Shown here: positions 482 to 19,056 of the stretch, piece by piece
How the letters are laid out: every line of letters starts with the position of its first letter
Numbering within the stretch: the stretch's first letter is position 1
DNA from: Acidaminococcus intestini DSM 21505
GTDB taxonomy: Bacteria > Bacillota > Negativicutes > Acidaminococcales > Acidaminococcaceae
NCBI RefSeq assembly: GCF_000425045.1
Contig: NZ_AULA01000028.1
Location: 1-38,658, forward strand
Reading direction: 5' to 3'
DNA: 38,658 nt
Translations under genes and position numbers: made by a program
The notes under the pieces: model-generated
Databases searched by the model: none
Told to the model about the DNA's origin: nothing
The model's input: the letters and a program-made list of their open reading frames with translations, nothing else

Positions 482-2217
482 CTAGATTTTTTCCAGATCA
501 ATCTCATCCCGCTTGATATGGTACTGTAGGTTCTGCCGGCTCATGCCAAGTTCCCTGGCGGCGGCAGAAATATTGCCGCCCGTCCGTTTGAGGGCCTGCA
601 CAAGGGCGGCACGCTCCACATCGCGAAGGGTCTTGCGGCTCCGTCCCAGCTTTTTACCCATTCCTTGGGATAACGACTGCAGTGAGCTTACCGGTACTTC
701 CATATTCACAAAATGCTCGGGCAGGCATTCCACCGTAAGGGTCGCCCGTTTTTCCGGCAGCATGTTCATAGCATATTCGATGGCGTGCTGCAATTCCCGC
801 ACATTGCCTGGCCAATCGTAATGGGTAAAGATATCAAGGACGTGGGGATCGACAGTCTGGACATTCCGTTCCAGCTGCTTATTGTAGCGGGCAATGAAAC
901 TTTGGACCAAAAGAGGAATATCTTCTTTACGTTCCCGCAGGGGCGGGATGCGGATTCCAACAACACCTAAGCGGAAATACAGGTCCTGCCGCAGCTTATG
1001 GGCGGCAAGAGCTTCTTCAGGAGGGATATTGATGTTTGATAGGACGCGGACATCCACTTTCCGTTCCCGCGTGCTTCCTACGCGCCGCACCGTACCTTCC
1101 TGGAGGACGCGCAGCAGCTTGGGCTGAAGATTGATGTTCATAGAGTTGATTTCATCAAGGAGCAGGCTGCCGCCATTTGCCTGTTCAAAGAGTCCTGGAT
1201 GGGATTCGGCGCCTGTATAGGCACCCTTTTCTGTTCCAAAAAGCAGCCCTTCAAGAAGGTTTTCCGGGATGGCCGCACAGTTGATGGCAAGAAAGGGTCC
1301 CTGTGCCCGTCTGCTGGCGTTGTGGATACTCTGGGCAAAAAGTTCCTTGCCGGTTCCTGTTTCACCGTAGATCATGACAGATGAAGAGGACTTTGCTACC
1401 TGCTTGCAGCGGTCCACAAGAACGCGCATGGAATGGCTTGATGAAATGATATCTTCAAAATGGTATTTTGCATGGAGCACACTATCGTGACTTTTTTCCC
1501 CTTGATCTGGGCATCCTGGCGGAGTAGTTCATCCTGCAATTCAAGGATCTTGCGGTGCAGGGAATCAAGCTGACTGAAGTCTTCCATGACGCTGTACGCG
1601 CCTAGGACCTGGCTGTTTTTAAAGATGGGATAGTTATCCGATACGATATCAACTTCTTTCCCATTGAAGGTCTCGTATTGCTGGCGCTGGTTAAGGTAAG
1701 GTTTTTCCGCTTTAAGGACTTTGGGAAGCAGGAGCGGCATATCACTTTCACTCTTATAGACTTCATCCATACTCTTACCAACAACAGTTTCATTGAGCAG
1801 ACTATCCATGCGAACGGCAGCATCGTTCAAAAAGAGGATTTGTTCTTTTTCGTCGCATAAAATGACGGACTCGCTGATCCGGTTCAGGACGTTTTGAAAC
1901 ATCTCCCGGTACACGTCGCAGGCAGCATCCCGAAAGACGATGAGTTCCATGCCTTCCGGGATTCCCTGCACAAGCGGGCACTTGACGCGGCGCACCCATT
2001 TTTCAAAAGCAATATGAGCAATCTGTTTATCTTTCAAGGGAAGCAAAAGAGGCCGTGCATTATCGGGCACAGGCGTACCAACCCCTTCAGACATTGCTAA
2101 GAAAGATTTACCCACTTCATTGATGGCCGCAATGATTCCATTTTTCTGGACCAGCATGGCTCCCATGCCAAGGCCTGACAAAAAAGTCATGACTTCCTGC
2201 CACTTCATGTTCTTCAA
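482..2217 (-). pseudogene. Sigma-54-dependent transcriptional activator (PAS + AAA+ + Fis HTH), frameshifted
   Basis: Two adjacent frames together make one enhancer-binding protein of about 578 residues. The N-terminal part (2217 to about 1490) looks like a PAS-type sensor region (ICDEKEQILFLNDAAVRMDS). The C-terminal part has Walker A GETGTGKE, the sigma-54 contact loop GAYTGA (a GAFTGA variant), Walker B SLLLDE, the arginine-finger region and a C-terminal Fis-type helix-turn-helix (NISAAARELGMSRQNLQYHI). The frame breaks at about 1491-1500, where the coding strand reads GGGGAAAAAAG; one extra A would join the halves as ...KGKKSHDSVLHAKYHFEDI. The AAA+ half alone has a start-like ATG at 1480 but no convincing ribosome site. 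It is the last gene beside the glycyl-radical operon, whose promoter is of sigma-54 type, so it is the obvious activator. A sequencing error in the A-run, phase variation or ribosomal slippage are alternatives to true loss. Confidence 0.85.
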
Positions 2218-2377: not shown

Positions 2378-3322
2378 TTATGCGTCGGAACCGATTTTCA
2401 GGACTTCGCGCATGAACTTGATGCTCTTTCTCATGCCTTCCAGTTCCTTTTGGCGTCCTTCTTCGAGGCTGTATCCGCTCAGCGGCAGCTCGATTTCAAG
2501 GTCAATGGTATCAAGTTCTTCCGGCGCTTCAGCGCGCAGGATCTTCATGATTTCCACAACATCGACGTCACCGTCGCCAATGGCACAGCCCAAGGAGTGG
2601 GTCCCGTCAGGATCAGCAAAGATTTTGTTGTCGCAGAAGTGGACGCAGTAGCAGTAAGGCGCCATTTTCTTTACGCATTCAGCAATGCCTTCGCCGAGGA
2701 TGAGAGAGTTGATCGTGTCGCAGCAGGCTCCGATCTGGGGATGGTTGAGTTTTTTCACCATCCAGACTACTTCATCAGCAAAGAGGTCACAGTGGTTTTC
2801 AATGGCAATCTTGAGACCATATTTTTCAATGGTAGGGATGTTCTTTTGGAACTCCATAACCACGCGGCTCATCTGTTCCATGGCTTCCGGTGACATGCAT
2901 GCATGTGTGAAAGGGCGGGAATGACGAATATCCGTGCTGTATTTGACGAGTTTGGCCCCCATAGCATGGGCAATTTCCAAGGATTCCTCAATGGTCGAAT
3001 TGACGCGGGGATCACTCGGAGCATCAAAGGAGATATTAAGTTCCAGGTCAAGGCCCCGTTTTTCTGCTTCCTTTTTCACCATTGCCAGGTGTTCCGGGCT
3101 CGTATCGTTGTCGAGGTCAACAAGGGTGATATGAAGCACTTCGATATGTTCCTTTTTGGCAAGGTCCATGAGGTCGATGAGGGAACCGGCCTTTTCAAAA
3201 GCATAGGTCTTGCCTTCGCTCTGGAAGCCCCAGCTTTCCCCGTAACCGCTCAGGTGAAGGGTATAACTGTGCATGCCGAGTTTGAACTTTCTGTTGCTGT
3301 TTTTTCCCGTAATCTTGTCCAT
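2378..3322 (-). CDS. Sugar-phosphate isomerase/epimerase-like TIM-barrel protein
   Basis: This 314-residue protein belongs to the xylose-isomerase-like TIM-barrel (AP-endonuclease-2) superfamily. These enzymes usually bind a divalent metal and interconvert small hydroxy-carbonyl compounds. Metal-ligand-like residues occur at expected places: the Glu of IAIENHCD, the Asp of GACCDTINS, the His of YCVHFCDNK and the Glu of DLEIELP. The start is ATG 3322, with AAAGGAG eight bases upstream; an in-frame TTG six bases earlier is less likely. It is the last gene of the operon, 24 bp after the AraC-type regulator. Its substrate cannot be read from sequence. Membership suggests it handles the glycyl radical enzyme's substrate or product. 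Confidence 0.75.
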   Translation of the reverse strand: MDKITGKNSNRKFKLGMHSYTLHLSGYGESWGFQSEGKTYAFEKAGSLIDLMDLAKKEHIEVLHITLVDLDNDTSPEHLAMVKKEAEKRGLDLELNISFDAPSDPRVNSTIEESLEIAHAMGAKLVKYSTDIRHSRPFTHACMSPEAMEQMSRVVMEFQKNIPTIEKYGLKIAIENHCDLFADEVVWMVKKLNHPQIGACCDTINSLILGEGIAECVKKMAPYCYCVHFCDNKIFADPDGTHSLGCAIGDGDVDVVEIMKILRAEAPEELDTIDLEIELPLSGYSLEEGRQKELEGMRKSIKFMREVLKIGSDA

Positions 3323-3346
3323 TTTCAATTCTCCTTTGTTGTTAGT

Positions 3347-4063
3347 TTATCCAACAGCGTCGATGCCGTTAGCTTCCCGGAAAAGTTTGGGCGTCATTCC
3401 CGTAATGCTGTGAAAAGCCCGGGTAAAGGTGGAATTGCTGCTGTAGCCGACCATGATGGCAATGTCCATCATGGAATAATGGGTCTTTAAGAGCAGTTCT
3501 TTCGCCCGCTCGATGCGGATACGCCGCAGGTAAAGACTGGGTGAGCAGCCCGTCTGCTGCTTAAACCAATCGTTGTAGTAAGTCACATTGTAATTTTCCA
3601 TTTCAGCCAGCTGGTTCACTGTAATGGGCAGGTCATAGTGTTCGCTCAGATAGCGGATACTTGGGGCTGCGCAGTTATTCATCAGTTTGCTGTAAAGGTA
3701 GCTATAAAGATAGGATACAGAATTGCTTTCTGGATTCTGCCGCAATTCGGCCTGGATGAGCTCCACGAGCTGGGCAATCTGCCCCACCATAGAAATGACG
3801 ATGGGGTAGGAAAGCATAATGCCTTCCTTTTCATCGACGATTTCCTTTGATAGATTGATGGCAAGGAGTTTTCCTCGATAGCTGCACTGATGATCCATCT
3901 TAGGCGGTACAAGGCACAATTCCTGGGGTGTGACAGTATAGTCCGAATTGCCAATGGATAATTCCATCGTTTCTCCCATAGGCACGAGGATTTGGGGATA
4001 TTCGTGATGATGGGCACCAAAACATTCCTGAAAGACCTCGATATCAAACTTTTGGCTTAACAT
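3347..4063 (-). CDS. AraC-family transcriptional regulator
   Basis: The protein has an N-terminal cupin-like sensing domain (HHHEYPQILVPMGE, then LCLVPPKMDHQC) and a C-terminal AraC/XylS DNA-binding domain of about 100 residues. The second helix-turn-helix is clear in MDIAIMVGYSSNSTFTRAFHSITGMTPKLFR. The start at 4063 is preferred because GAGG lies nine bases upstream; an ATG six bases earlier is too close to it. The gene sits inside the operon, between the BCCT carrier and the TIM barrel. That suggests a ligand-responsive local regulator acting with, or independently of, the sigma-54 control seen at the operon promoter. The ligand is unknown. Confidence 0.85.
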   Translation of the reverse strand: MLSQKFDIEVFQECFGAHHHEYPQILVPMGETMELSIGNSDYTVTPQELCLVPPKMDHQCSYRGKLLAINLSKEIVDEKEGIMLSYPIVISMVGQIAQLVELIQAELRQNPESNSVSYLYSYLYSKLMNNCAAPSIRYLSEHYDLPITVNQLAEMENYNVTYYNDWFKQQTGCSPSLYLRRIRIERAKELLLKTHYSMMDIAIMVGYSSNSTFTRAFHSITGMTPKLFREANGIDAVG

Positions 4064-4086
4064 ACTCATTCCCCTCTCTCAAAGAA

Positions 4087-5724
4087 TCAGTAATCCGCGT
4101 AAAGAAGGTTTTTGATGACAACGTCAAGGCCCTTGACCTTGGCCGAAATCCGGTCATCAGGGGCAGCCACTTCGTCTGTTTCGGGAGCCGCCTTAAGGCG
4201 ATGGCTCTTTGAAGCAAGAAGGGGGCTGCAGAGCTTCACATTCATCAAGAAGAGCCACAGCGTCGGCACGGTCATGATAAGACCGCCGATGTTAAGCAAT
4301 CCCTTGACAGCATTCATGCCGCCTGAGACGACAAGAAGATAGGCGACAGCGGAAATGGCCACACCGAGGATGATCTTGAGGGTCTTCGGCGGTTCAGCGT
4401 CAATTTCCTGACCGTGGACGCAGAGCGTTGCAAGCGCTGCCGTATTAGGGTCTGCCAACGTGATGAAGGACAGGCACACCGTAATGAGAAAGGCGAGCTG
4501 TACGAGCTTCCCCCGCGGCATGGTGCCAAGGACCTGATAGAGAGCAGTCTGCATGCCTTCTTTTTGAATCATGGCCCACACATCAAAGGTTCCACTCGTC
4601 TGGACGGAGATGGTCTGGCCAGCGAAGATGGCGATGAAAAGGCAGCAGAAAAGGGACGGAACAAGGATTTCCACAAGAAGAAATTCCCGCACGGTGTGCC
4701 CCTTCCCCATGCGGGCAAGGAACATGCCGATAACGGGTGCATAGATAAAGAAAGAATTCCAGAAGGTGATTGGCCATTCGTTCGCCCACTGATCCATCGG
4801 GGCCAGCGTATTGTTGTACGTGATTTTGTGCCAGAAGTTATCCATAATGTCGCCAATGGCTTCTGTACCGATTTTTCCAATGAAGATGGAATCTCCCGTT
4901 ACGACGACGTAGAGCATCAGACCAAAGAAGAAAAACATGCACGCCGTAGATACATAGGTAAGCCCCTTATTGATACCCGTCACGCAGGAAATGATGAAAA
5001 AGCCGGCCACAACAACGGTCAGGATGAAGTACATAAAGGGTCCCTGCGGGATGCCAAAGACGGCATTGATACCGCCGCTGATCTGCATAAGACCCGCTGC
5101 CATGGAGTTTGAGACGCCGCAGGCAACGGCATAGCCGCAGAACATGTGAAGCAGGCTCGTCAAGTGACGGTGCTTGCCACCTAGCGTGCGTTCCAGCATG
5201 GGCCCCATGGAAAGGGACTTTTGGTAGTTAAAGCAAAGGAGCGCAAAAGCGCAGGCCGGAATGGAATAAATGAAGTACTGGACAAAGGACCAATGAAACA
5301 TGGCCTGACTGACAGCAAAAATCGCCGCGTCCCTGCTTTCCGGCAGGGCGTGGATGGCAGCCGGCGGCTGCATGAAATGATAGAGCGGTTCGCCCATGGC
5401 CCAATAAAGCAGACCGCAGCCAATACCGCCGCAGATGGAAATGGAGTACCACTGCCAGGTCGTAAAGTCCGGTTTGGCATCAATTCCGCCAATCTTGACA
5501 TCACCCCATTTGAAGATGATGAGGACCATCCCCAAAATGACGGAAAAGACAGCAAGGAGGTTGATCCACCAGCCAAAGTAATCTCCTATGAGGTAGAGCA
5601 TCTTTGACATGACAAAGCCAAACTTTTCCGTAAAGAAAATACCTAAAATGATTTCTATCGTAAGAAGAAGCCCAATGACGATGAGGACTTCTTTATATAA
5701 TTTTCCTTTTAATTTTTCTTCCAT
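4087..5724 (-). CDS. BCCT-family secondary transporter with an altered substrate-binding box
   Basis: This 545-residue integral membrane protein belongs to the betaine/carnitine/choline transporter family, with about 12 hydrophobic segments. Family hallmarks are the MGEPLYHFMQPP segment and the segment before the conserved cytoplasmic loop, WNSFFIYAPVIGMFLARMG followed by KGHTVREF. In trimethylammonium carriers such as BetP and CaiT the latter reads W-A-W-W; here it is W-N-S-F. The TM4 motif W-G-x-H-A-W-A-x-Y is here W-S-F-V-Q-Y-F-I-Y. So two of the four aromatic box residues are changed to other aromatics and the central Trp of TM8 is Ser. The C-terminal tail is short. It lies between the activase gene and the AraC gene with gaps of 29 and 23 bp, so it probably imports the operon's substrate, which need not be a quaternary amine. 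Confidence 0.85.
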   Translation of the reverse strand: MEEKLKGKLYKEVLIVIGLLLTIEIILGIFFTEKFGFVMSKMLYLIGDYFGWWINLLAVFSVILGMVLIIFKWGDVKIGGIDAKPDFTTWQWYSISICGGIGCGLLYWAMGEPLYHFMQPPAAIHALPESRDAAIFAVSQAMFHWSFVQYFIYSIPACAFALLCFNYQKSLSMGPMLERTLGGKHRHLTSLLHMFCGYAVACGVSNSMAAGLMQISGGINAVFGIPQGPFMYFILTVVVAGFFIISCVTGINKGLTYVSTACMFFFFGLMLYVVVTGDSIFIGKIGTEAIGDIMDNFWHKITYNNTLAPMDQWANEWPITFWNSFFIYAPVIGMFLARMGKGHTVREFLLVEILVPSLFCCLFIAIFAGQTISVQTSGTFDVWAMIQKEGMQTALYQVLGTMPRGKLVQLAFLITVCLSFITLADPNTAALATLCVHGQEIDAEPPKTLKIILGVAISAVAYLLVVSGGMNAVKGLLNIGGLIMTVPTLWLFLMNVKLCSPLLASKSHRLKAAPETDEVAAPDDRISAKVKGLDVVIKNLLYADY

Positions 5725-5753
5725 CGATTCATGCCTCTCTTTTTAGGTTTCAA

Positions 5754-6530
5754 TCATTGTACGGTAATATTGTAGGTACGAAGAATCTTGCGGCAGCGAT
5801 CCATCATATCCAGCGTCGGGGTCTTGACGGATTTCATCATGTAGTCGCGGCCCAGTTTCTTATAGGTCACACTCCCCAGTGCGTGATACGGTAAAAGCTG
5901 CAGATAGACCAATCTGTCAAGATTTTGGCAGAATGTGCCAATCTTGTGGAGTTCTTCCTCCGAATCGTTGACTCCAGGAATGAGAGGGGTCCGGAGAATC
6001 ATCTGAAACCCTCCCTTCTGGCGGTCCAAAAACTTAATATTATGAAGAATGATGCGATTATCAACACCGCAGTACTTTTTGTGAAGGCTCGGCGTGACCG
6101 CTTTGAGATCAACGTAAAACGTATCAACATAAGGAACCATAGCGGCAATAGTTTCTTCTTTTCCAAAGAAACTTGTTTCGACGGCTGTAGAAATGCCTTC
6201 CATCGAGGCCGCCTTCAAAAGAGCAAGAGAGAAATCAGGCTGGGCCAGGAGTTCCCCTCCGGAAAGGGTCATGCCCCCTCCGGAGATGAAGTAGAACGCG
6301 GTATCCTTGCGGACTTCCTTCATGACGTCCGTGACAGTCATTTCCGTTCCATAGGATTTACTGCCGTCCACCGTCGTTTCAACTTGAAACGCCTGACTTT
6401 CCGGCGTGGAACACCACTGACAGCGAAGCGGGCATCCTTTTAGGAAGACGACTGTCCTCATGCCATCACCATCATGGATGGAAGATCGCTCGATGCGAAG
6501 CACCATTCCTTTTGTCTGTTCCAGCGTCAT
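5754..6530 (-). CDS. Glycyl radical enzyme activase (radical SAM)
   Basis: The 258-residue protein has the radical-SAM motif CxxxCxxC in LKGCPLRCQWCSTPES, preceded by the GDGMRTVVF segment typical of pyruvate-formate-lyase-activase relatives. The GGGMTLSGGE segment for S-adenosylmethionine is also present. It would cleave SAM with a [4Fe-4S] cluster and abstract hydrogen from Gly767 of the neighbouring lyase. Most activases of the dehydratase/lyase class carry an eight-Cys ferredoxin insert right after the SAM motif; this protein lacks it and resembles the compact PflA layout. It lies 40 bp after the lyase gene, with a ribosome site GAGGAG close to ATG 6530. Confidence 0.92.
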   Translation of the reverse strand: MTLEQTKGMVLRIERSSIHDGDGMRTVVFLKGCPLRCQWCSTPESQAFQVETTVDGSKSYGTEMTVTDVMKEVRKDTAFYFISGGGMTLSGGELLAQPDFSLALLKAASMEGISTAVETSFFGKEETIAAMVPYVDTFYVDLKAVTPSLHKKYCGVDNRIILHNIKFLDRQKGGFQMILRTPLIPGVNDSEEELHKIGTFCQNLDRLVYLQLLPYHALGSVTYKKLGRDYMMKSVKTPTLDMMDRCRKILRTYNITVQ

Positions 6531-6570
6531 TGCTCCTCATTCCTCTCTTGTCTTAGCCTATTGATTGTCC

Positions 6571-8964
6571 TTAACGGGCTGATTCGGTCCAGTGGTTGAT
6601 TTCCGTACGTCCAATGATTTCATCCTGCGTTTCCTTGCCGAGTTCGACAAAGAAAGCTGTGTAGCCAGCCACACGGATGAGCAGGTCGCGGTGATCGTTC
6701 GGGTGTTTCTGGGCATCGATCAAGGTTTCGCGATCGACGCAGTTGATCTGGGCATGGTAAACACCAAGTACGCTCATGGTCTTTACCATGTTCATAGCAT
6801 GAGTCATACCGTTTTCACCCTTGATGAGATCCGGTTCGAACTTCATATTGAGCTGCGTGCCCTGGGTAAAACGCGCATGCGGCAGGTGGCTGACTGATTT
6901 TAAAAGGGCCGTCGGGCCATTGACGTCCGTACCGCCCGTAGCACCGATGCCATCCGTGAGCGGTGTCGTTGCCTTGCGTCCGCTCGGCAGGGCCCCTACC
7001 CACTGGCCAATCGGCGTATTGCCTGATACAGGCAACATACCCAAGGTCATCTTGCCAAAAACCGTATCGTATTTTTCGAACTGGTCTGCCACATGGTTGA
7101 AAATTTCACCGACACAGAAGTCAGCCCGCGGATCATCATTGCCATATTTTGGGGCTTCAAGGCAAAGCTTCTGGATATCTTCATAACCTTCGAAGTTGGC
7201 ATCGAGGGCCTTGATGAGAGTATCCATGGAGATCTTCTTTTCATCGAAGACAAGGTACTTCACATCAGCGATGGAGTTGATGATATCAGCCTGACCAACT
7301 GTAATGACACCGCCGCCAGCATTGTATTGGGCACCGCCTGGCTGGCTGTAGTCCTTGCCGACTTCCATACAGTGCTCATAGCTAAGAGACAGGGTCGGAA
7401 CAGGGCGATAGTTCATGCTCAGGTAATCAAGGAGCTGGTTGCAGCTCACGATGACATCAACGGCATAGTCAATGTGCTTTTTCACGGCAGCAAAGAAATC
7501 GTCAAAGGTCTTGAAGTTTCTCGGATCCCCTGTGTGGATGGAGACCTGTTCGCCCGTAATGCGGCTTTTGCCGTCATTTAAAGCAAATTCAACCATGGCA
7601 CCCATATTGATATCGGCAATGTCCGTATATTGCTTCATCTTCCCAGACAGGTTCGTTTCTACGCAACCGCAGGGGTTCCAGTTCCAAGCTTCACGAAGAG
7701 GAATGCCCTTGTTCTGGAGCATCTGGATACCTACATCGTTGGAGTAGATGGCCGGCATCGTAAGGCCCATGCCGATGGATTCGATGGCTTTACGGAGCAG
7801 GGAATCAGGGTTCTTGGAAATGCTGTAGGTCATGGCCATGTTCGGTTCCTTGAAACGAACATCTTCCGTGGCCTGAATCATCATGTAACTCAATTCGTTG
7901 CTGGCGTCGTTGCCATACTGGTCAATACCGCCGCAGCTCGTCTGGACCGTAATGCAGTAGCCGGCGGCATACTGAGCTGTAACTTCATCCTGGAAAAGGG
8001 ACATTTCAGCCACTTTGATCCACAGGCAGTCAAGAAGTTCCTGAGCATCGTCATCCGTGAGGATTCCCGCTTCCTTGTCTTTCTTATAGTACGGATAAAG
8101 GTACTGATCGAGTCGGCCCAAGTTATAGCTCGAAGCATTCTGTTCCATGAAGCAGGCATATTCATAGGAAATGATGCTCTGGCAGGCTTCATAGAAGGTG
8201 CGGGCCGGATATTCCGGTACGTGACGGGTGACTTCAGCAATCTTTAAAAGTTCAGCCTTGCGAACGGGATCGTCGCATTCAGCGGCCATCTTTTCAGCAA
8301 GATCGGCATGACGGTGGGCCAGCAGGATGACAGCGTCAGCAGCTTTGATTTCTGCTTTATAGAAGAAGCTCTTTTCAAGGTCGCCCGGGTTGGCATCGTC
8401 CAGTTTAGCCAGGGCATCTTCTGCTTCCTTACGGATTGCAGCAAGACCCTTGGTGAGGATGCGCATCCAGCCCGGCGTGTTTTCGCCATAGCCGCGAACA
8501 GCTTTACGGTCGATGAAGATGGCGCCGTTGGCACGCAGCCGTTTGGCATCTTCTGGAAGCATGAGGTTCCAGCGGTCAAAGACGCATTTATTTTTCCAGT
8601 AATTCTGGACTTTTTCAGTGTAGACTTTCTTCCCTTCTTCACTCAGGTAGAAGGGGTCGAAAGGACGGGTGCTGATCGTGTCCAGTTCTTTTGCGATGAC
8701 GCCAGAAGCGCTGTCCGGGTTCAGGATGCCGCAGCGAGGTTTAAAGCCAACACCTCCGACCAGCAGTTCATGAGGCTGGATATAGATGTTTTTCTTGGCG
8801 CATACATTGTAGTAGCCGTTGGCGCGCTGGATGATCCAGGGCTGCCCTTCCATCTCCTTGAACCCCTCTGTAAAGAACGCTGCGTCGTAAACGTCCATGT
8901 CAACGCGGGTTTGGAGGTACTGCTGACGCAATGCCTCAATTCGTTTCATGTACTCTTTTGCCAT
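6571..8964 (-). CDS. Glycyl radical enzyme (lyase/dehydratase class), substrate unknown
   Basis: This 797-residue protein has both hallmarks of the PFL-like glycyl radical superfamily. The thiyl site is GCVET (C434, E436), with an unusual extra Cys two residues earlier in NPCGCVET. The C-terminal radical loop RVAGYTAFF places Gly767 31 residues from the end. The start ATG 8964 has GGGAGG upstream; a TTG 24 bases earlier runs through that ribosome site. Pyruvate formate-lyase is excluded because the Cys-Cys pair is missing. CutC and glycerol/propanediol dehydratases carry GCVEP rather than GCVET, and 4-hydroxyphenylacetate decarboxylase has GCLET and a small subunit that is absent here. The GCVETxxxGK pattern is nearest, from memory, to hydroxyproline-dehydratase-like enzymes, but no P5C reductase is nearby. 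It is the first gene of the operon and is often annotated as formate acetyltransferase, which would be misleading. Confidence 0.9.
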   Translation of the reverse strand: MAKEYMKRIEALRQQYLQTRVDMDVYDAAFFTEGFKEMEGQPWIIQRANGYYNVCAKKNIYIQPHELLVGGVGFKPRCGILNPDSASGVIAKELDTISTRPFDPFYLSEEGKKVYTEKVQNYWKNKCVFDRWNLMLPEDAKRLRANGAIFIDRKAVRGYGENTPGWMRILTKGLAAIRKEAEDALAKLDDANPGDLEKSFFYKAEIKAADAVILLAHRHADLAEKMAAECDDPVRKAELLKIAEVTRHVPEYPARTFYEACQSIISYEYACFMEQNASSYNLGRLDQYLYPYYKKDKEAGILTDDDAQELLDCLWIKVAEMSLFQDEVTAQYAAGYCITVQTSCGGIDQYGNDASNELSYMMIQATEDVRFKEPNMAMTYSISKNPDSLLRKAIESIGMGLTMPAIYSNDVGIQMLQNKGIPLREAWNWNPCGCVETNLSGKMKQYTDIADINMGAMVEFALNDGKSRITGEQVSIHTGDPRNFKTFDDFFAAVKKHIDYAVDVIVSCNQLLDYLSMNYRPVPTLSLSYEHCMEVGKDYSQPGGAQYNAGGGVITVGQADIINSIADVKYLVFDEKKISMDTLIKALDANFEGYEDIQKLCLEAPKYGNDDPRADFCVGEIFNHVADQFEKYDTVFGKMTLGMLPVSGNTPIGQWVGALPSGRKATTPLTDGIGATGGTDVNGPTALLKSVSHLPHARFTQGTQLNMKFEPDLIKGENGMTHAMNMVKTMSVLGVYHAQINCVDRETLIDAQKHPNDHRDLLIRVAGYTAFFVELGKETQDEIIGRTEINHWTESAR

Positions 8965-9044
8965 AATAATGCCTCCCTTTTCCTGCAATAACGTGATTTC
9001 CCAGGGAAATCTTTAAATGACTCCATTCATCTACCTTATTACGT

Positions 9045-9061
9045 AGCAAATCTTATGCCAA
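9045..9061 (-). promoter_or_regulatory. Sigma-54 (-24/-12) promoter of the glycyl-radical operon
   Basis: The minus strand reads TTGGCATAAGATTTGCT. The GG (-24) and GC (-12) dinucleotides are 12 bp apart, as the sigma-54 consensus TTGGCAC-N5-TTGC requires. Predicted transcription would begin near 9034, about 70 bp before ATG 8964. A sigma-54 gene and an activator gene occur in the same window. The match is by eye, without a matrix score. Confidence 0.75.
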
Positions 9062-9290: not shown

Positions 9291-9899
9291 CTAATGGGAG
9301 AGTTTTTCTTCAGCATCCCGCAGGGAATCATACCCATAAGCATGGACCGTTGCCCGCAGAATTTCTTCGTTCAGGTTGACGTCTTTTTCCAGGCAGCCCA
9401 TGAGATAGGCCTCATAAAGGGCCAAGGTCGCTTCTGAATAAGTCAGGAGCTCTCCTTTGAGATAAGTCTCAAAGGCTGTATCAGCACTCCCGTCCTGGGT
9501 AATGCGCCTGCCTTTTTGGGAAAGGGCCGGGTATTTTTTAGCGATTTCTTTCTGCCAGTCCATATGGATGGCAGCAATGCGCAGGACGCGTCCTTTCTTT
9601 TCATCTGTAACTTGAGGCAGCAGATCCCGCACTTCCTTAAATTCCTTAGGCGAGGTCCACATCATCATATACCCGTATTTTTCGGCAAGAAGGTTACGTC
9701 CTTCTGCCTGAGCTGCCCTTAAATCGTTTTCATAACTTTCCAGAAGGGGCACATTCCAGGAAAGGAACTGGCTGCCCCTCATGATGAAGAAGGTTTTCCG
9801 ATCATCCTGGCAGGACGCCCGTCCGCCGATATTACGGACCTTATCAAAAAGAGTCCATTCCCGCTCAATGAGGCGCTGAATGAGTTTCATTTTTTCCAT
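9291..9899 (-). CDS. DUF4125-family protein
   Basis: This 202-residue, soluble, mostly helical protein matches what I recall of the DUF4125 family, which has no established function. It begins MEKMKLIQRLIEREWTLFDK and contains RASCQDDRKTFFIMRGSQF, a conserved-looking block, and a C-terminal TYSEATLALYEAYL helix. There are no membrane segments or known catalytic motifs. GGAGG lies ten bases before ATG 9899. The gene overlaps the end of the DUF4037 gene by 13 bp, so translation is probably coupled. The pair and the TPR gene upstream seem to work as one unit. Confidence 0.7.
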   Translation of the reverse strand: MEKMKLIQRLIEREWTLFDKVRNIGGRASCQDDRKTFFIMRGSQFLSWNVPLLESYENDLRAAQAEGRNLLAEKYGYMMMWTSPKEFKEVRDLLPQVTDEKKGRVLRIAAIHMDWQKEIAKKYPALSQKGRRITQDGSADTAFETYLKGELLTYSEATLALYEAYLMGCLEKDVNLNEEILRATVHAYGYDSLRDAEEKLSH

Positions 9900-10831
9900 A
9901 GTCTTGGTTCCTCCATGATATTGCGGCGGCGCAGCTCGTCGTCGTTGATCTTTGCCTGTACGTAAAGTGCATGCTCTGTAAGAAAAGTCCCCACGCCTTC
10001 CGGAACAAGTCCTGCATCCATCAAGGCGCGGGAAAGTCTTCCTGAAATTGCTTCCATGAGGGCCATGGACCGTTCTGTGTCCTGCGTCATAAGAAGGTCT
10101 TCAAATAAAGGCAGCGTGCCATACGTTTCGGAAAGGGTACCTACGCTCCGATAAAGCCATTTATAAAAAGGCGCATAGGCGTGGTTCAAATGATGGATCA
10201 GCTGCATAGCAGAAAAGAGAAATCCACTCTTGGAAAAAGTCATGGCTCCTAGGTCTTTCCGGGCAGTGCAGCGAGGATAGTTATACTGCCCCGCTTGAGC
10301 CATATAAAATAGGTCATGGGCCATCTTTGTCAACCACACATCGCGGGGGCAGGCGGTTTTGAGCCGGTGCCTTGTTTCTGTCATCGCTCCCGGTGCGTCA
10401 TAAAACAGGGACCCGTTTACAGCCATGGAAAGACGCGCTTCATCGCAGTGCATCCAGTCCGCCAAGGTCTGGGGTCCTTTTTCAAATCCAGTTAAGCGCT
10501 GAAAAAAAACTTCTATAATAAGGACGCCAACTCTCTTAGGACCGTCCAATTCCCGCCGAGGCGGCATGCAAAGGAAGCTTTTGGGAAGGGATGCATAGAG
10601 CTGACGAAGCCGTTCTTCCCATTGGGGGGCGTCCTTTTTCTCAAGAAAGAGCATGACGCCGGGGCCCCAATCATGGTCCCGGGAAATGGCGTCATCAAAA
10701 GAAAAACATTCGGACCCTTCGCCGCAAAGGCCCGCCGCAAGGTGGGGCAGCACGTCAGGAAGATCCGTTTCGATTTTAGGACGAGCCACTTCTTCCCAAA
10801 AGCGGTGCGAAAGAGCAAGTCCCTGCATCAT
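9887..10831 (-). CDS. DUF4037-family, nucleotidyltransferase-like protein
   Basis: The 314-residue protein has the nucleotidyltransferase-superfamily pattern G-S-x11-D-x-D near its N-terminus: G39-S40 followed by D52-H-D54 in ISRDHDWGPGVMLF. That is the usual metal-binding signature of minimal and aminoglycoside-type nucleotidyltransferases. The second half is helical, with a conserved-looking segment LIHHLNHAYAPFYKWLYR. This matches DUF4037 as I know it. The transferred group and target are unknown. The start ATG 10831 overlaps the TPR stop codon (ATGA) and has GGGAGAG upstream. Translational coupling on both sides supports one TPR/DUF4037/DUF4125 complex or pathway. Confidence 0.72.
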   Translation of the reverse strand: MMQGLALSHRFWEEVARPKIETDLPDVLPHLAAGLCGEGSECFSFDDAISRDHDWGPGVMLFLEKKDAPQWEERLRQLYASLPKSFLCMPPRRELDGPKRVGVLIIEVFFQRLTGFEKGPQTLADWMHCDEARLSMAVNGSLFYDAPGAMTETRHRLKTACPRDVWLTKMAHDLFYMAQAGQYNYPRCTARKDLGAMTFSKSGFLFSAMQLIHHLNHAYAPFYKWLYRSVGTLSETYGTLPLFEDLLMTQDTERSMALMEAISGRLSRALMDAGLVPEGVGTFLTEHALYVQAKINDDELRRRNIMEEPRLWKK

Positions 10832-11757: not shown

Positions 11758-11840
11758 TTTAAGTTTTTCCTTTCTGATGAAAAGAAGGACTTCCTTCACG
11801 CCCGTCCGGCATCAAGAAAGCCCTCCAAATGGTCAGTGCC

Positions 11841-13370
11841 TTATGGCTGGTTGATCACACATTCTTTTTTTGTGTCCGCGTCAATACGATCTTTATTGAT
11901 ATCCATCCAAAGGTCACAGTTCTCAATCCCCAGTTTTTCCGGATTGAAATAAGGCATTTCCACACCGGCATTACGCTGCGCAATATAGTCATCATAGGTT
12001 TTCTTGACAACAGGCAGGAGTAGGAGCAAGGCGATGAGATTGAACCAGGCCATGAGGCCAAACATGACTTCACTGATGGCCCACGCCGTCGTCGCCGTTA
12101 CGTTAGCCCACACGAAGAAGAAAATCGGCATCAAGATACGAATGATCCAAATTCCTGTCTTACGCAGATGGGGATGAGTATCCTTCATCAAATAAGCAAG
12201 ACCCGATTCGCCTTCATAGTAGTAAGCAATACAAGTGGAATAAGCAAAACAGGTAAGGGCAATGGCAACAAGGGAACCGCCAGCACCAAAAGCGGTCTTG
12301 GCCGCCTCCTGGACCCAGACAACACCCGCCGTATTGGTTGCTGCCTGTTCGGCCATGGCAGAAGACCCGGACCCAACATACATATAAGCCTTTCCATCAG
12401 GTCCAAGGACGTTGAAGCAGTCCGTAACAAGGGCCATCATGCCGGAACAGAAGCAGACAAGGACGTCAACATAAACGGAAAACGAGTTGACAAGGCCCTG
12501 GGTGGCAGGATGCGGCGTTTCTGCCGTTGCACCAGAAGGCGGCGTTTCACCAAAGCCAGCGCCGGAAGAATTGACAGCACGTTTGACGCCGTAGGAAAAA
12601 GCAGTTCCCATCATGCCACCGAAGACAGCACCCGAATCAAAAGCACTGTCAAGGACCATCCGAATGGTCGGCATAAAGGCATCAGCCTTTGCAACCATGA
12701 CGTAGATGGCAAGGACCCAGTAACCAATGGTCATAAAGGGAACGATAATAGTCGAAATCTTGGCAATGCGGCGGATTCCGCCAGAAATAACAGCAAAAAG
12801 CAGGAGAGCAATGACGCCGCCTGTAACAGGCCGGGCAACGCCAAAGCTGTTTTCAAAAGCCATGGCAATATTGTTGGCGCTCGGTCCCGTTACAAGGATT
12901 GGTACGCCAATGCTGCAGAACAGGGCAAAAACAATGGCCATAAACTTACCCAAGGCCTTATGGCGGATGCCTCGCTCCATATAGAAATAGGGGCCGCCGC
13001 GGTACTGGCCATCCTGACGGATCTTGTAGATCTGACCTAAGCTGTTTTCCGTATAGGAGACAGCCGATGTAGCAAGGGCCGTTACGAGCATCCAGAAGAC
13101 TGCACCCGGTCCGCCATAGAGGATAGCTACCATGACACCGCCGATGTTGCCGACGGCAACACTGTAGGCAACAACGGAACAGAACGTTTCAAAAGGAGAC
13201 AGTCCTTCCATGGAACCTGAGCCCGAGCGGAGGAGCTTCCATTGAAGAGGGATCTTCGTAATATTGCCAAATTTCATGGCAAAGCAGAAAATCAAAGCCG
13301 AACCAAATGTCAAGATGATCAGAGGGGTGGACCAAATCAGGTTATCTAACCACATAATGAAATCAGACAT
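11841..13370 (-). CDS. Sodium:alanine symporter family (AGCS) amino-acid carrier
   Basis: The 509-residue protein has about ten to eleven transmembrane segments and AGCS-family signatures. Among them are GPGAVFWMLVTALATSAVSYTE near residue 95, YRGGPYFYMERGI and AFSYGVKRAVNSSGAGFGE. These carriers bring in alanine, glycine or related amino acids with Na+. The C-terminal tail after the last helix is hydrophilic. It is preceded by a leader of over 400 bp with several hairpins, and followed by the TPR/DUF4037/DUF4125 genes, probably on the same transcript. The opine-dehydrogenase-type gene just upstream makes an amino-acid or N-substituted amino-acid substrate plausible, but this is inference. 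Confidence 0.92.
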   Translation of the reverse strand: MSDFIMWLDNLIWSTPLIILTFGSALIFCFAMKFGNITKIPLQWKLLRSGSGSMEGLSPFETFCSVVAYSVAVGNIGGVMVAILYGGPGAVFWMLVTALATSAVSYTENSLGQIYKIRQDGQYRGGPYFYMERGIRHKALGKFMAIVFALFCSIGVPILVTGPSANNIAMAFENSFGVARPVTGGVIALLLFAVISGGIRRIAKISTIIVPFMTIGYWVLAIYVMVAKADAFMPTIRMVLDSAFDSGAVFGGMMGTAFSYGVKRAVNSSGAGFGETPPSGATAETPHPATQGLVNSFSVYVDVLVCFCSGMMALVTDCFNVLGPDGKAYMYVGSGSSAMAEQAATNTAGVVWVQEAAKTAFGAGGSLVAIALTCFAYSTCIAYYYEGESGLAYLMKDTHPHLRKTGIWIIRILMPIFFFVWANVTATTAWAISEVMFGLMAWFNLIALLLLLPVVKKTYDDYIAQRNAGVEMPYFNPEKLGIENCDLWMDINKDRIDADTKKECVINQP

Positions 13371-13893: not shown

Positions 13894-15162
13894 TTATGCT
13901 TTCGGCGTGAATTCACCTTCGCGCAGGTACTTCTGGAGCTGAGCATCCGTCATATGGCCAATGTCGAGGTAATCCAGCGTGTACTTGCTGCCGGCAGCCA
14001 GATCCCGTTTTAGCATGGTGCTTGCAAGAAGGATCATGGAGTCGATGATCGGGGTCGGTACATTGTATTTCTTGCCGAGCTGGCTCATGAGGTAGCAGCC
14101 AACTGGAACGTCTTCCGTGATGTACCGGTTTTCCAGGTCGAACGGACCATCGCCGAAGAAGTTTTCATATTTTTCTTCATACGGTACAGCGAAGTCAGGA
14201 CCCATGTATTCTTTCCCATACATGGTGGTACGGGAGAAGAAGTCTTCATAGTTTACGGTGCAAAGGTCGATGCTCATGGCCTTGGCAAGGGCTTTTTCTT
14301 CTTCCCAGAAAGCAGCCTGGACTTCAGCAATAGCCGGGCAAGCACCGAACCCATAGAGGGAGTAGTTCTTCTTTTCCTGCCCCAGGACGGTGTCGAAGTT
14401 CTGCATGGTGGAAACGGCCAGAACCGTGCCAGGAACGTGGATAACAGGGTTGACGTTGGACAAGTTGATATCCATGACGGTGTTGCCTGTTACAAATCCG
14501 TGGTGGAATTCCTCCCCCTTCTTGGAGATGGTGACTTCGCCTTCTGCGTCGATGATGGCACCAAAAGCAGGAATGTAGTAAGCAGAAGCCATGAAAGCTT
14601 CGTTATCTTTGGTCGGCAGGGCGCAGCCGCGGATCGTGGTGATGCGGTCTTCAACCTTGCATTCGTTGGTCGTAACGCCGCCGCGTTTCACAACACGGAT
14701 ACCGTAAGGAGCGGTGTACCAAGAACCAACGATGACTTTCTTAGTGCATTTCAGTTCGCGCATTAGTTTGCGGAATACGAGGGTACCGCAGTTATCCGGC
14801 AGGATGTGAATGACTTGCCCATCTTCGAGAAGAGGAATCAATTCACGGAAGATGCCTTCGTGAGCGATAGCAACAGTTGCCACGATGATGATGCCAGCAC
14901 CCTTGACAGCTTTTGCCATGTCATCGGTTGCAAGGGCAACTTTGGCCGTTCCTTTGCGAGTGTAACCAAAGAAGCTGAACTGGTTGCCCGAAAGGGTAAT
15001 GCCCGTCTTTTCAATGTTCAGGAAATTCGTTTTAGCGAATCTCGGCTGATCCCAGATGCGGACTTCCTTTCCTGCAAGGGCACAGTCAGCAGCCATCGTC
15101 TTGCCGACAGCACCGCCACCCAGTACAGCAATTGGCATGTCTTTCAAATAGCTCATATCCAT
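13894..15162 (-). CDS. NAD/NADP octopine/nopaline dehydrogenase family protein
   Basis: The 422-residue protein begins with a Rossmann dinucleotide-binding site (IAVLGGGAVGKTMAADCALAG). It has the two-domain length of opine dehydrogenases. The C-terminal domain includes VMDINLSNVNPVIHVPGTVL, with the conserved Asn and His region of the octopine-dehydrogenase fold. Family members join or split an amino acid and a 2-oxo acid through a secondary amine. No opine-metallophore synthase is nearby, so a catabolic or redox-balancing role is as likely as synthesis. The start ATG 15162 has AAAGGAGG nine bases upstream. It is monocistronic, driven by the sigma-54-type promoter at 15281-15297. Confidence 0.82.
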   Translation of the reverse strand: MDMSYLKDMPIAVLGGGAVGKTMAADCALAGKEVRIWDQPRFAKTNFLNIEKTGITLSGNQFSFFGYTRKGTAKVALATDDMAKAVKGAGIIIVATVAIAHEGIFRELIPLLEDGQVIHILPDNCGTLVFRKLMRELKCTKKVIVGSWYTAPYGIRVVKRGGVTTNECKVEDRITTIRGCALPTKDNEAFMASAYYIPAFGAIIDAEGEVTISKKGEEFHHGFVTGNTVMDINLSNVNPVIHVPGTVLAVSTMQNFDTVLGQEKKNYSLYGFGACPAIAEVQAAFWEEEKALAKAMSIDLCTVNYEDFFSRTTMYGKEYMGPDFAVPYEEKYENFFGDGPFDLENRYITEDVPVGCYLMSQLGKKYNVPTPIIDSMILLASTMLKRDLAAGSKYTLDYLDIGHMTDAQLQKYLREGEFTPKA

Positions 15163-15438: not shown

Positions 15439-15549
15439 GCATCAAAAGGACAAAACGGGTATAAATGAAGTAACAAGATACAAAGGTGGACTTTTCCGAA
15501 AGCGGCTTTCGCTTTCGCTATGAAATCCATTATTAAGGGAGGATGTATC

Positions 15550-18500
15550 ATGACCAAGAAAATCGAAATCATGGATGGGAACCAGGCTGCGGCCTACATT
15601 TCCTACGCCTTCACAGAAGTGGCTGGGATCTACCCCATCACCCCGTCATCCCCGATGGCGGAACATGTCGATGAATGGGCGGCCAACGGTAAAAAGAACC
15701 TCTTCGGTCAGCCTGTCCACGTTGTTGAAATGCAGTCCGAAGGCGGTGCTTCCGGTACTGTTCACGGTTCCCTGCAGTCCGGCGCCCTGACGACAACCTA
15801 CACGGCTTCCCAGGGGCTGCTCCTCATGATCCCGAACATGTATAAGATTGCCGGCGAAATGCTCCCTGGCGTCTTCCACGTATCGGCCCGTACCTTGAGT
15901 GCGCATGCTCTCTCCATCTTTGGAGACCACTCCGACGTCATGGCCGTACGCAATACGGGCTTTTCGATGCTGGCTTCAACGAGTCCGCAAGAAGTCATGG
16001 ACCTCGGTGCTGTAGCACATTTAGCAGCCATCCACTGCCGGATGCCTTTCCTGCACTTCTTCGATGGCTTCCGTACGAGTCACGAAATCCAAAAGATTGA
16101 CGCCCTCGATTACGAAGACCTGAGACCTTACGTTGATTACGATGCCATCAAGGCCTTTCGCAAAAACGCCCTCAATCCGGAACATCCAGCCACCCGCGGC
16201 TGCACCGTCAACCCGGATATCTTCTTCCAGTGCCGCGAAGCCTGCAATACGCGCTTTGCCGCCATTCCGGATGCTGTTGAGCACTACATGGATGTCATCA
16301 ACAAACTGACGGGACGTGATTACCGTATCTTTAATTACTATGGTGCTCCTGACGCGGAACGGGTCATTGTCATCATGGGTTCCGGTGCGGAAACGGCCAA
16401 GGAAACGGTTGATTTTCTCACGGCCAAAGGCGAAAAGGTCGGTCTCCTCGTTGTCCACCTCTATCGTCCCTTCGCAGCAGACCGCTTCCTTGCAGCCATG
16501 CCGAAAACGGTCAAGAAGATTGCTGTTTTGGACCGCACGAAAGAACCGGGCGCCATGGGCGAACCGCTCTACCAAGATGTCAGCAGCCTCTACAAGGCAA
16601 AAGGCGCCGATGTCACCATCGTCGGCGGCCGTTATGGTCTTTCTTCCAAAGACACGACGCCGGATCAGATGCTTGCCGTCTATAAGAATCTTGCCCTTGA
16701 CACACCAAAAAATGACTTCACCATTGGTATCGTCGATGATGTGACGAATACGAGCCTACCCAAGGCCGAGGCCATCCACACGGCACCGGAAGGTCAGATG
16801 AGCGCTGAATTCTGGGGCATGGGGTCTGACGGGACGGTCGGCGCCAATAAAAACTCCATCAAGATTATTGGCCACACGACGGACCTCTACTGCCAAGCCT
16901 ACTTCGTCTATGATTCCAAGAAATCGGGCGGTCTTACTCAGAGTCACCTGCGTTTTGGCAGGAACCCCATCCGCAGCCCGTACCTCATCCAGGCCGCAGA
17001 TTTTGTTGCCTGCCATACACCGAGCTACGTGACAAAATATGATATGGTGAAGAACCTCAAAGAAGGCGGCACATTCCTTCTTAACTGCGCCTGGAGCGAT
17101 GAAGACCTTGACCGGCACCTGCCTGCTTCCATGAAGCGCGCCCTTTATGCCAAAAAAGCCAAATTCTATACCATCAACGCAACGGCCATTGCTCGTTCCA
17201 TCGGCCTTGGCAACCGCACCAATACGATCCTTCAAGCTGCTTTCTTTAAGCTCCTTGGCATCATTCCTGTGGAAGAAGCCGTCAAGGCCATGAAGGAAGC
17301 CATCTATAAGACCTACTTTATCAAGAAGGGTCAGGCTGTTGTCGATAAGAACTATGCCTCCATCGATCACGGCATCAACGAGCTCCACAGCGTCACTATT
17401 CCCGAAAACTGGAAAGATGCTCAGGATGCTCCCAAGCAAGACAAAGCCCCAGCCTTTATCAAGGAAGTCGTCAACGTCATGAACCGTCAGGAAGGTGAAG
17501 TCCTCCCCGTTTCGACCATGACCAAGTACGGGCTCGAAGATGGGACCTGGCCTGCTGGCACGACGAAGTACGAAAAACGCGGAGCTGCCGTGGAAGTACC
17601 TGAATGGCAGACAGCAAACTGCATCCAGTGCAACCAGTGCGCCCTCGTCTGCCCGCACGCAGCCATTCGTCCGATCCTCGTTGATGCAAAGGAACTGGCC
17701 GCTGCTCCTGCCGGTTTTGCAACGAAGAAAGCCATCGGTCCAGCCCTTGCTGCCTACGAATATCGCATGCAGGTCTCTCCGCTTGACTGCACGGGCTGCG
17801 GGAGCTGCGTCAATGTCTGCCCAGCCAAGGAAAAAGCTCTCGTCATGAAGCCGCTTGAAACCCAGTTGCCTCAGGCTCCGCTGTGGGATTATGCCGTCGA
17901 TACCGTTTCCATCAAGAAAGATGCCGTCAGCGATAAATCCATCAAGGCTTCCCAATTTGCCAAACCTTATTTCGAATTCTCCGGGGCCTGCGCTGGCTGC
18001 GGCGAAACGCCGTACATCAAGCTTGTAACCCAGCTGTTTGGTGACCACATGTACATCACGAACGCTTCGGGCTGTTCTTCTGCTTACGGCGGCTCCACGC
18101 CTAGCTCCCCATACTGCACGGATAAGAGAGGATTTGGACCAAGCTGGGCCATGTCCCTTTTCGAAGACAACGCCGAATATGCTTATGGCTATCTCCTCGG
18201 CCAGGATTCCATCCGCAACGAACTGAAAGATGCCGTCAAGGCACTCCTTGATAAGGGTGTTGCCACAAAAGCCTGCGAAGCCTACCTTAAGGATGCGGAC
18301 AGCAAGGAACGGTCCCGCAAGGTCAGCGACGATCTTCTCGCTGCACTTGAAGGCGTCACCGAACCGGAAGCGGTCATGATCCGCGAAAACAAGGAATTTG
18401 TCGCTAAAAAGAGCGTCTGGGCCTTTGGCGGTGACGGCTGGGCCTACGATATCGGTTACGGCGGCTTGGACCACGTCCTTGCTTCCGGCAAAGACATCAA

Positions 18501-19056
18501 CATTCTTGTCCTTGATACGGAAGTCTACTCCAACACGGGCGGTCAGTCCTCCAAGGCAACCGGTGCCGGTGCGGTCGCTAAATTCTCTGCCGGTGGTAAA
18601 CCGACAGCGAAGAAGGACCTGGGCATGATGGCCATGAGCTATGGCTACGTTTATGTTGCCCAAGTGGCCATGGGCGCCGACCCGAACCAGACCCTCAAAG
18701 CCATCCGCGAAGCTGAAGCCTATAACGGTCCTTCCATCGTCATCTGCTACTGCCCTTGCATCGAGCATGGCATGAAGTGCGGCATGGGGCTCAGCCAAGC
18801 CGAAGAAAAGAAAGCCGTCGAAGCTGGTTACTGGCAGCTCTACCGCTACAATCCGGAAAAAGTCGGAACGGAAGAAAATGCCTTCACCCTCGATTCGAAA
18901 GCACCAAAAGGCGATTTCCGGGCCTTCCTCATGGGCCAGAACCGCTATGCTTCCCTAAAACTCGCCTTCCCGGATAAAGCAGAAGCCTTCTATGAAAAAG
19001 CTGAAGCTGATGCCAAGAAACGTCTTGCCCGCTACGAAATCCTTGCGGGCCGCTAA
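15550..19056 (+). CDS. nifJ: Pyruvate:ferredoxin (flavodoxin) oxidoreductase, single chain
   Basis: The 1168-residue protein oxidises pyruvate and CoA to acetyl-CoA and CO2 with reduction of ferredoxin. Domains follow the homodimeric PFOR order: an N-terminal domain with YPITPSSPMAEHVDEWA, the middle CoA/transketolase-C-like part, and a ferredoxin domain with CIQCNQCALVCP (C691-C701) and CTGCGSCVNVCP (C747-C757). The thiamine-diphosphate domain has the proximal-cluster motif ACAGCGE (C814, C817) and GDGWAYDIG near residue 962. ATG 15550 is preceded by AAGGGAGG at good spacing. An upstream in-frame ATG at 15520 would place that site inside the gene. It heads a plus-strand block with abfD and nfnAB. 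Confidence 0.96.
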   Translation: MTKKIEIMDGNQAAAYISYAFTEVAGIYPITPSSPMAEHVDEWAANGKKNLFGQPVHVVEMQSEGGASGTVHGSLQSGALTTTYTASQGLLLMIPNMYKIAGEMLPGVFHVSARTLSAHALSIFGDHSDVMAVRNTGFSMLASTSPQEVMDLGAVAHLAAIHCRMPFLHFFDGFRTSHEIQKIDALDYEDLRPYVDYDAIKAFRKNALNPEHPATRGCTVNPDIFFQCREACNTRFAAIPDAVEHYMDVINKLTGRDYRIFNYYGAPDAERVIVIMGSGAETAKETVDFLTAKGEKVGLLVVHLYRPFAADRFLAAMPKTVKKIAVLDRTKEPGAMGEPLYQDVSSLYKAKGADVTIVGGRYGLSSKDTTPDQMLAVYKNLALDTPKNDFTIGIVDDVTNTSLPKAEAIHTAPEGQMSAEFWGMGSDGTVGANKNSIKIIGHTTDLYCQAYFVYDSKKSGGLTQSHLRFGRNPIRSPYLIQAADFVACHTPSYVTKYDMVKNLKEGGTFLLNCAWSDEDLDRHLPASMKRALYAKKAKFYTINATAIARSIGLGNRTNTILQAAFFKLLGIIPVEEAVKAMKEAIYKTYFIKKGQAVVDKNYASIDHGINELHSVTIPENWKDAQDAPKQDKAPAFIKEVVNVMNRQEGEVLPVSTMTKYGLEDGTWPAGTTKYEKRGAAVEVPEWQTANCIQCNQCALVCPHAAIRPILVDAKELAAAPAGFATKKAIGPALAAYEYRMQVSPLDCTGCGSCVNVCPAKEKALVMKPLETQLPQAPLWDYAVDTVSIKKDAVSDKSIKASQFAKPYFEFSGACAGCGETPYIKLVTQLFGDHMYITNASGCSSAYGGSTPSSPYCTDKRGFGPSWAMSLFEDNAEYAYGYLLGQDSIRNELKDAVKALLDKGVATKACEAYLKDADSKERSRKVSDDLLAALEGVTEPEAVMIRENKEFVAKKSVWAFGGDGWAYDIGYGGLDHVLASGKDINILVLDTEVYSNTGGQSSKATGAGAVAKFSAGGKPTAKKDLGMMAMSYGYVYVAQVAMGADPNQTLKAIREAEAYNGPSIVICYCPCIEHGMKCGMGLSQAEEKKAVEAGYWQLYRYNPEKVGTEENAFTLDSKAPKGDFRAFLMGQNRYASLKLAFPDKAEAFYEKAEADAKKRLARYEILAGR

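Follow-up and report, generated by a model that had tools for sequence, protein, structure and literature searches.

A glycyl radical enzyme operon of Acidaminococcus intestini and its place in a candidate variant island for N-methyl-4-hydroxyproline catabolism

What does a glycyl radical enzyme (GRE) act on when its gene neighbours match no glycyl radical pathway known to the annotator? The first-pass annotation raised this question for a locus of Acidaminococcus intestini DSM 21505, within a 38,658-nt stretch of contig NZ_AULA01000028.1 that we analyzed as a whole (hereafter the window). The five-gene operon that it had described is confirmed in place and order, with strong Pfam matches for every gene and all five genes on the minus strand: the GRE (6571..8964; 797 aa from ATG; PF02901 (PFL-like) at 2.5e-187 and PF01228 (Gly_radical) at 8.9e-28), a compact radical-SAM GRE activase (5754..6530; 258 aa; PF04055 (Radical_SAM) at 4.6e-16; TIGR02494 at 257 bits, cut-off 174), a BCCT carrier, probably for a zwitterionic substrate (4087..5724; PF02028 at 1.8e-100), an AraC-type regulator (3347..4069; PF12833 (HTH_18) at 1.2e-22), and a xylose-isomerase-like TIM barrel of the AP_endonuc_2 type, presumed to be a metal-dependent isomerase or epimerase (2378..3322; 314 aa from ATG; PF01261 at 1.3e-18, 68 bits against a cut-off of 31.1). 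Read from the GRE to the TIM barrel, the intergenic gaps are 40, 29, 17 and 24 bp, so that the five genes are arranged as in one transcript. Four conserved neighbours outside 2378-9061 had been overlooked: genes for a regulator with PAS and sigma54-activator domains, an AGCS-type symporter, an opine-dehydrogenase-like protein and a pyruvate:ferredoxin oxidoreductase (PFOR)-type enzyme. No microcompartment or alcohol/aldehyde dehydrogenase genes were seen among the open reading frames, which were judged by eye. A profile search of the genome (2.28 Mb in 55 contigs) gives one PF02901 match. We propose, with a probability of roughly 60%, that the operon is part of a variant N-methyl-4-hydroxyproline catabolic island, so that a GRE operon labelled “unassigned” now has a concrete hypothesis open to assay.

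A phmmer search of the Protein Data Bank (PDB) with the window GRE returns 8iof at 1217 bits over 792 residues (65.1% identity) and 8id1 at 886 bits (49.9% identity), with CutC at 635 and HplG at 369 bits. The first two entries are titled “N-methyl-Cis-4-hydroxy-D-proline dehydratase in Clostridium sp. FS41” and “N-Methyl-cis-4-hydroxy-L-proline dehydratase in Intestinibacter bartlettii”; the dehydratase function of both is taken here from these titles alone, the molecule names of the deposits (benzylsuccinate synthase; formate C-acetyltransferase) being misleading. N-methyl-4-hydroxyproline dehydratases are reportedly the subject of a 2024 paper in ACS Catalysis. A maximum-likelihood tree of 33 rows, in which the tool flagged long outgroup branches, makes the window GRE and six relatives (L003 and L032-L036; 81-84% identical) the sister group of 8iof plus the GRE of locus L090, with 100/100 support. 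These nine rows join a 16-row group that includes 8id1, and the resulting 25-row clade stands apart from eight other GREs at 100/98; partial L092 and L037 were omitted from the tree and most of the distant GREs dropped, the eight being retained as outgroup. By sequence, the window GRE and its close relatives form a new sister group inside the known N-methyl-4-hydroxyproline dehydratase clade: the clade is settled, and the putative substrate is an N-methyl-4-hydroxyproline-type compound whose isomer and methylation state may differ from those of the 8iof substrate. The earlier description of the operon as matching no known glycyl radical pathway thus survives for its set of partners, which does differ, but not for the enzyme itself. 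The hint in the same annotation at zwitterions of the hydroxyproline-betaine type was right.

Profile scores against named families tell the same enzyme apart from its better-known relatives. The best NCBIfam model is that of CutC (TIGR04394), with 685.1 bits against a curated cut-off of 1050, and the HypD model (NF043068) reaches 557.5 bits against 1100. Both enzymes have the GRE eliminase fold and the GCVE core motif in common with the window GRE, and HypD has the whole GCVET. Identity with choline TMA-lyase (CutC) or trans-4-hydroxy-L-proline dehydratase (HypD) was considered. CutC was rejected by the score and the mapped residues, and HypD by the score and its other contact residues; we regard either identity as very improbable. 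The residues in question are H160, S334, D339 and F340 of HypD, named as important for hydroxyproline in PMC7077986, which map through L039, by alignment, to E161, A333, I338 and T339 of the window GRE.

The thiyl-site loop NPCGCVET occupies residues 430-437 of the window GRE, with C434 as the presumed thiyl cysteine and E436 present, and RVAGY, the glycyl-radical motif around G767, is preserved. The GCVET within this loop had been taken as a distinguishing mark, a claim that does not stand: all 26 GREs aligned from the clade have it (the Cys loop of 8id1 reads CGCVETNL), as does HypD, whose mutagenesis primers in PMC7077986 likewise show GCVET. Being common to the whole clade and HypD, the motif is no pointer to new chemistry. 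E161 is present in all 25 clade members that cover the position, and both E161 and T339 are common to the seven window-type GREs and 8iof; 8id1 has F339 where the window GRE has T. Other positions separate the window type from its sister group. Position 333 is A in the seven window-type GREs and S in 8iof, L090 and three 8id1-type rows, with A again in the other 14 rows; position 338 is fixed as I in the seven and is M in all 19 other clade members; and position 379 is fixed as T in the seven and is R in the same 19. Positions 333 and 338 are mapped through HypD by sequence, whereas 379 is a position that varies between subfamilies rather than a mapped substrate contact. Altogether, the seven window-type GREs and the pair 8iof and L090 are fixed for different residues at 110 positions. 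Set against the refuting condition named in the first-pass annotation, a lyase inside a characterized isofunctional cluster with matching substrate residues, the outcome is divided: the GRE is the sister group of 8iof, but residues 333, 338 and 379 have changed. These fixed differences, together with the different partner set, are what would speak for a substrate other than a hydroxyproline, cleaved at some C-N, C-S or C-O bond of a small zwitterion, as that annotation suggested. We consider such a substrate distinctly unlikely in view of the 100/100 sister relationship to 8iof, a TIM-barrel partner held in common with the 8iof-type operon, and the company kept by relatives of the opine-type dehydrogenase, which sit with MttB and in two of six loci with proline-racemase-family genes.

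Structure prediction added little to the placement of the GRE. A model built on a single sequence was of no use (mean pLDDT 33.9). A second, from 10 sequences (mean pLDDT 62.1, pTM 0.65), was poor in the barrel core and was used for fetching PDB titles, not for active-site geometry; Foldseek ranked 8iof first and 8id1 third for it, whereas VIA-align placed 8iof 14th (Z 31.5) and 8id1 24th (Z 28.1). With a mediocre model and discordant ranks, we rely on the sequence comparison. One of two scans of viral contigs gave seven distant matches, among them a partial GRE used in the alignment for the second model; the other scan gave no match. The Clostridia-type GREs (L032, L033, L034, L035 and L036) carry a short C-terminal tail rich in Cys and Gly (GCGC, for example), which is absent from the window GRE.

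The second aligned stretch of TIGR02494 on the activase starts only at residue 58 (profile position 98), a pattern that fits a compact activase from which the ferredoxin-type insert has been lost. In the nearest sister genome (G002; locus L040, 8783-9542) the activase is frame-broken.

The TIM barrel had been called an unusual partner, a view that proves too strong: the family recurs in the L090 operon, where a protein 64% identical to that of the window accompanies an MFS carrier, a GRE 91.8% identical to 8iof, an activase that is likewise compact and a P5C-reductase-like protein (PF14748, 8.2e-19). Across 391 genomes of the class of G063, itself the chosen centre of the set, the TIM barrel (E<=1e-40) occurs in three (G063, G586 and G850), all of them among the 10 that carry a clade GRE (E<=1e-200); the probability of this overlap by chance is 1.2e-5, rising to 4.7e-4 when the centre genome is excluded (two of two among nine). 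Within the order of the window's genome, a GRE of more than 80% identity is present in 2 of 63 genomes, and the TIM barrel in the same two. Three of the four loci with sufficient reach (window, L033 and L040) have the gene; in L034 it was not found in the 10 kb that follow the GRE. E175, D202, H228 and E276, an E-D-H-E set of the kind that we take to bind metal in xylose-isomerase-like TIM barrels, are invariant in six of six aligned sequences. The protein receives no NCBIfam name and no solved relative by phmmer; profile comparison gives weak matches only, among them a xylose-isomerase-domain protein (3tva) and D-tagatose 3-epimerase. In G850 the TIM gene lies amid MttB genes and a BCCT carrier gene, 24 kb from an 8id1-type GRE that has its own P5C-reductase-like neighbour, and G063 has a second TIM barrel (43%) whose neighbours are a BCCT carrier and a sigma54 regulator. 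We read the window protein as a putative isomerase or epimerase for compounds of the hydroxyproline-betaine type.

The redox partner of the GRE also differs from that of the L090 operon: an opine-type dehydrogenase and a PFOR stand where L090 has P5C reductase. The opine-dehydrogenase-like gene (13894..15162, minus strand; PF02317 at 8.4e-31, 107.5 bits against a cut-off of 30), presumably for an NAD(P)-linked step, is found near the GRE in all seven loci that reach it (window, L033, L034, L035, L036, L037 and L040); L032, on a short contig, was left out of counts for neighbours beyond its reach. The six related proteins are 88-90% identical to that of the window, and their genes lie 0.5-1.0 kb from the GRE; in the window the gene is upstream of the GRE, at a distance of 4.9 kb. 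The absence of P5C reductase from the operon, correctly noted in the first-pass annotation, extends to the window (best E 0.88 with the P5C-reductase protein of a related operon as query, nothing convincing) and to seven related island loci (none at E<=0.01). Conversely, the opine-type gene was not found in L090, L102 or L103, and the two genes are mutually exclusive in the DNA examined (window plus seven island loci versus L090, L102 and L103). With known opine dehydrogenases (CENDH 1bg6; octopine DH 3c7a) the window protein has in common the PF02317 domain and motifs of the NxNPxxH and RYxxEDxPxG types. It keeps NxNPxxH and RYITED, and the NxNPxxH-type motif, to which we ascribe a catalytic role, is present in 11 of 11 aligned sequences; overall similarity to 1bg6 is weak (86 bits). 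The window protein differs from these enzymes in being set in a GRE island, and its relatives at about 50% identity lie mostly in MttB clusters.

Those relatives are rare, present in 9 of 398 genomes at E<=1e-60 with the window's own included. GRE matches at E<=1e-175 occur in 10 of the 398, and only G000 and G154 have both, on different contigs in G154. The idea that the opine-type family as such is tied to GREs was rejected, as just two of the nine genomes with the dehydrogenase also have a GRE match. Among six loci examined for the relatives, MttB-family genes are present in five, and the remaining one has pterin-methyltransferase-like and RamA-like genes; BCCT, proline-racemase-family, ornithine-cyclodeaminase-family and PanB-type genes each occur in two of the six (four gene names in these loci were checked against Pfam, and ABC carriers there were seen by eye). 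Such settings link the dehydrogenase to N-methyl or quaternary amine catabolism independently of the GRE. MttB is not a fixed partner, however, since it is present in three of eight related genomes (G063, G067 and G068) and was not found in G000, G002, G064, G066 and G586. Neither MttB (PF06253) nor the proline racemase family (PF05544) gives a match in the window's genome, so demethylation of a betaine by MttB was rejected for this bacterium, which would either take the N-methyl compound up from outside or metabolize the betaine with its methyl groups in place.

The PFOR-type 2-oxo acid:ferredoxin oxidoreductase (15520..19056, plus strand) is an island paralogue; the genome has four full-length matches to TIGR02176, of which it is one. 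By comparison, G002, G063, G066 and G067 have two full-length PFORs each, G064 has one plus fragments, and G068 has a fragment only. It adjoins the opine-type gene in six of six loci (window, L034-L037 and L040). Island PFORs from seven genomes, 75-82% identical to that of the window, group at 100/100, the G063 copy being located at the end of a contig of its own and included by its place in the tree only. Nine further paralogues, two of them from G586, which has no island copy, fall apart from this group at 56-61% identity to the window protein. The grouping indicates that the PFOR descends with the island. The island PFOR of G002 (L040, 14210-17743) has one stop codon near its end; the GRE, opine-type dehydrogenase, TIM and BCCT stretches there have none, and the activase and PFOR breaks of this genome may reflect decay or assembly error. 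The general motifs of pyruvate enzymes are retained in the window's island PFOR, and its substrate may thus be pyruvate; a possible alternative role is the supply of electrons to the activase.

These motifs bear on the main alternative reading, in which the GRE is a C-N ring-opening lyase. It would take the C4 hydrogen and expel nitrogen from the ring, in the manner of HplG and CutC, yielding 2-(methylamino)-4-oxopentanoate, from which the opine-type dehydrogenase would give methylamine and 2,4-dioxopentanoate; the latter would be split to pyruvate and acetate, and the pyruvate passed to the island PFOR. This scheme would explain at once the opine-type enzyme, a PFOR with pyruvate-enzyme motifs and the missing P5C reductase, and CutC is the best NCBIfam model of the GRE, though below its cut-off. 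Against it, the nearest solved relatives are titled dehydratases, HplG is distant (369 bits compared with 1217 for 8iof), and no dioxopentanoate hydrolase was identified. We hold ring opening to be unlikely, and the GRE most likely dehydrates its substrate, as the titles of 8iof and 8id1 suggest.

The analysis supports the clade of the GRE, its conserved partners and the common descent of the island PFORs; later steps of the dehydration pathway rest on families and linkage, from which we infer the substrate, the direction of the dehydrogenase and the role of the TIM barrel. The BCCT carrier, and perhaps the AGCS symporter, would import N-methylated 4-hydroxyproline or its betaine, and the TIM barrel would most likely set the isomer that the GRE accepts. 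The activase would put the glycyl radical on G767; the C434 thiyl radical would then take a ring hydrogen, and loss of water would give an N-methyl-pyrroline carboxylate able to open to an amino-aldehyde. The next redox step would fall to the opine-type dehydrogenase, as a substitute for the P5C reductase found in the 8iof-type operon; by the chemistry of its family, the dehydrogenase might release methylamine and a 2-oxo acid, which the island PFOR would convert to acyl-CoA. Opine dehydrogenases reversibly convert N-alkyl amino acids to an amine plus a 2-oxo acid, and the carbon concerned often has the D configuration, a preference that would suit a GRE product of the D series. Counting against the dehydratase island are the A333/I338/T379 changes, the low VIA-align ranks, a TIM gene not found within 10 kb past the GRE in L034, a carrier without the Trp-rich stretch and the gene breaks. 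A bolder version, which we offer tentatively as possible but less than likely, is an undescribed oxidative route in which the dehydrogenase yields methylamine and a 2-oxo acid and the island ferredoxin oxidoreductase yields acyl-CoA and ATP, allowing growth on hydroxyproline-betaine-type compounds without MttB, with the GRE acting maybe on a different isomer or on the betaine itself. The open-access literature yielded no description of roles for opine-type dehydrogenases or TIM barrels in N-methyl-proline chemistry, nor of an opine-type dehydrogenase plus island PFOR in place of P5C reductase. If the proposed island holds, gut anaerobes would have two exits from one radical reaction, by P5C reductase or by a 2-oxo acid; there would be a bacterial source of methylamine that starts from neither choline nor carnitine; and N-methylated hydroxyprolines would perhaps be turned into fuel for an anaerobic bacterium.

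Carriers vary among the loci. The window and L040 have BCCT, L033 has AGCS together with a BCCT of 24% identity, and L090, unlike these, has an MFS carrier. The AGCS-type Na+/amino acid symporter of the window (11841..13370, minus strand), named by eye, is a possible second carrier, and a 69% identical copy lies within the GRE operon of L033. The best solved relative of the BCCT carrier is a trimethylamine transporter (183 bits), whose Trp-rich stretch WAWWIAW reads WNSFFIY in the window protein.

The AraC regulator is present in five of five loci with sufficient reach (window, L033, L034, L035 and L040), at 64-70% identity in all four related loci. The PAS-sigma54 regulator (482..2217, minus strand; PF00989 and PF00158) occurs in five of six (window, L034, L035, L037 and L040), the exception being L036. 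In the window its frame is broken near 1495-1501, the L034 protein aligning in two frames; L034 has one open reading frame and L040 two tandem single-frame copies, and the window break may be decay or assembly error. Genes for regulators with 61-63% identity to the sigma54 domain of the window protein adjoin MttB and BCCT genes in L105, L106 and L107 (G063, G068 and G067), as if one sigma54 regulator family served betaine-type regulons.

The named hosts of related loci are Agathobaculum and Butyricicoccus metagenome-assembled genomes and unclassified Clostridia or Eubacteriales; together with the occurrence in 2 of 63 genomes of the window's order, this spread suggests horizontal transfer. A gene for a LUD-domain protein, not found in the window, L032, L033, L036 or L040, separates those of the sigma54 regulator and the island PFOR in L034 (2597-3223, by Pfam), L035 (1515-2141) and L037 (2293-2919), the latter two copies being 80-81% identical to that of L034. 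Genes for DUF4125, DUF4037 and TPR proteins lie at 9291-11799, between the opine-type dehydrogenase and the GRE of the window, and the same trio is found 5 kb past the GRE operon in L034 (36-49% identity).
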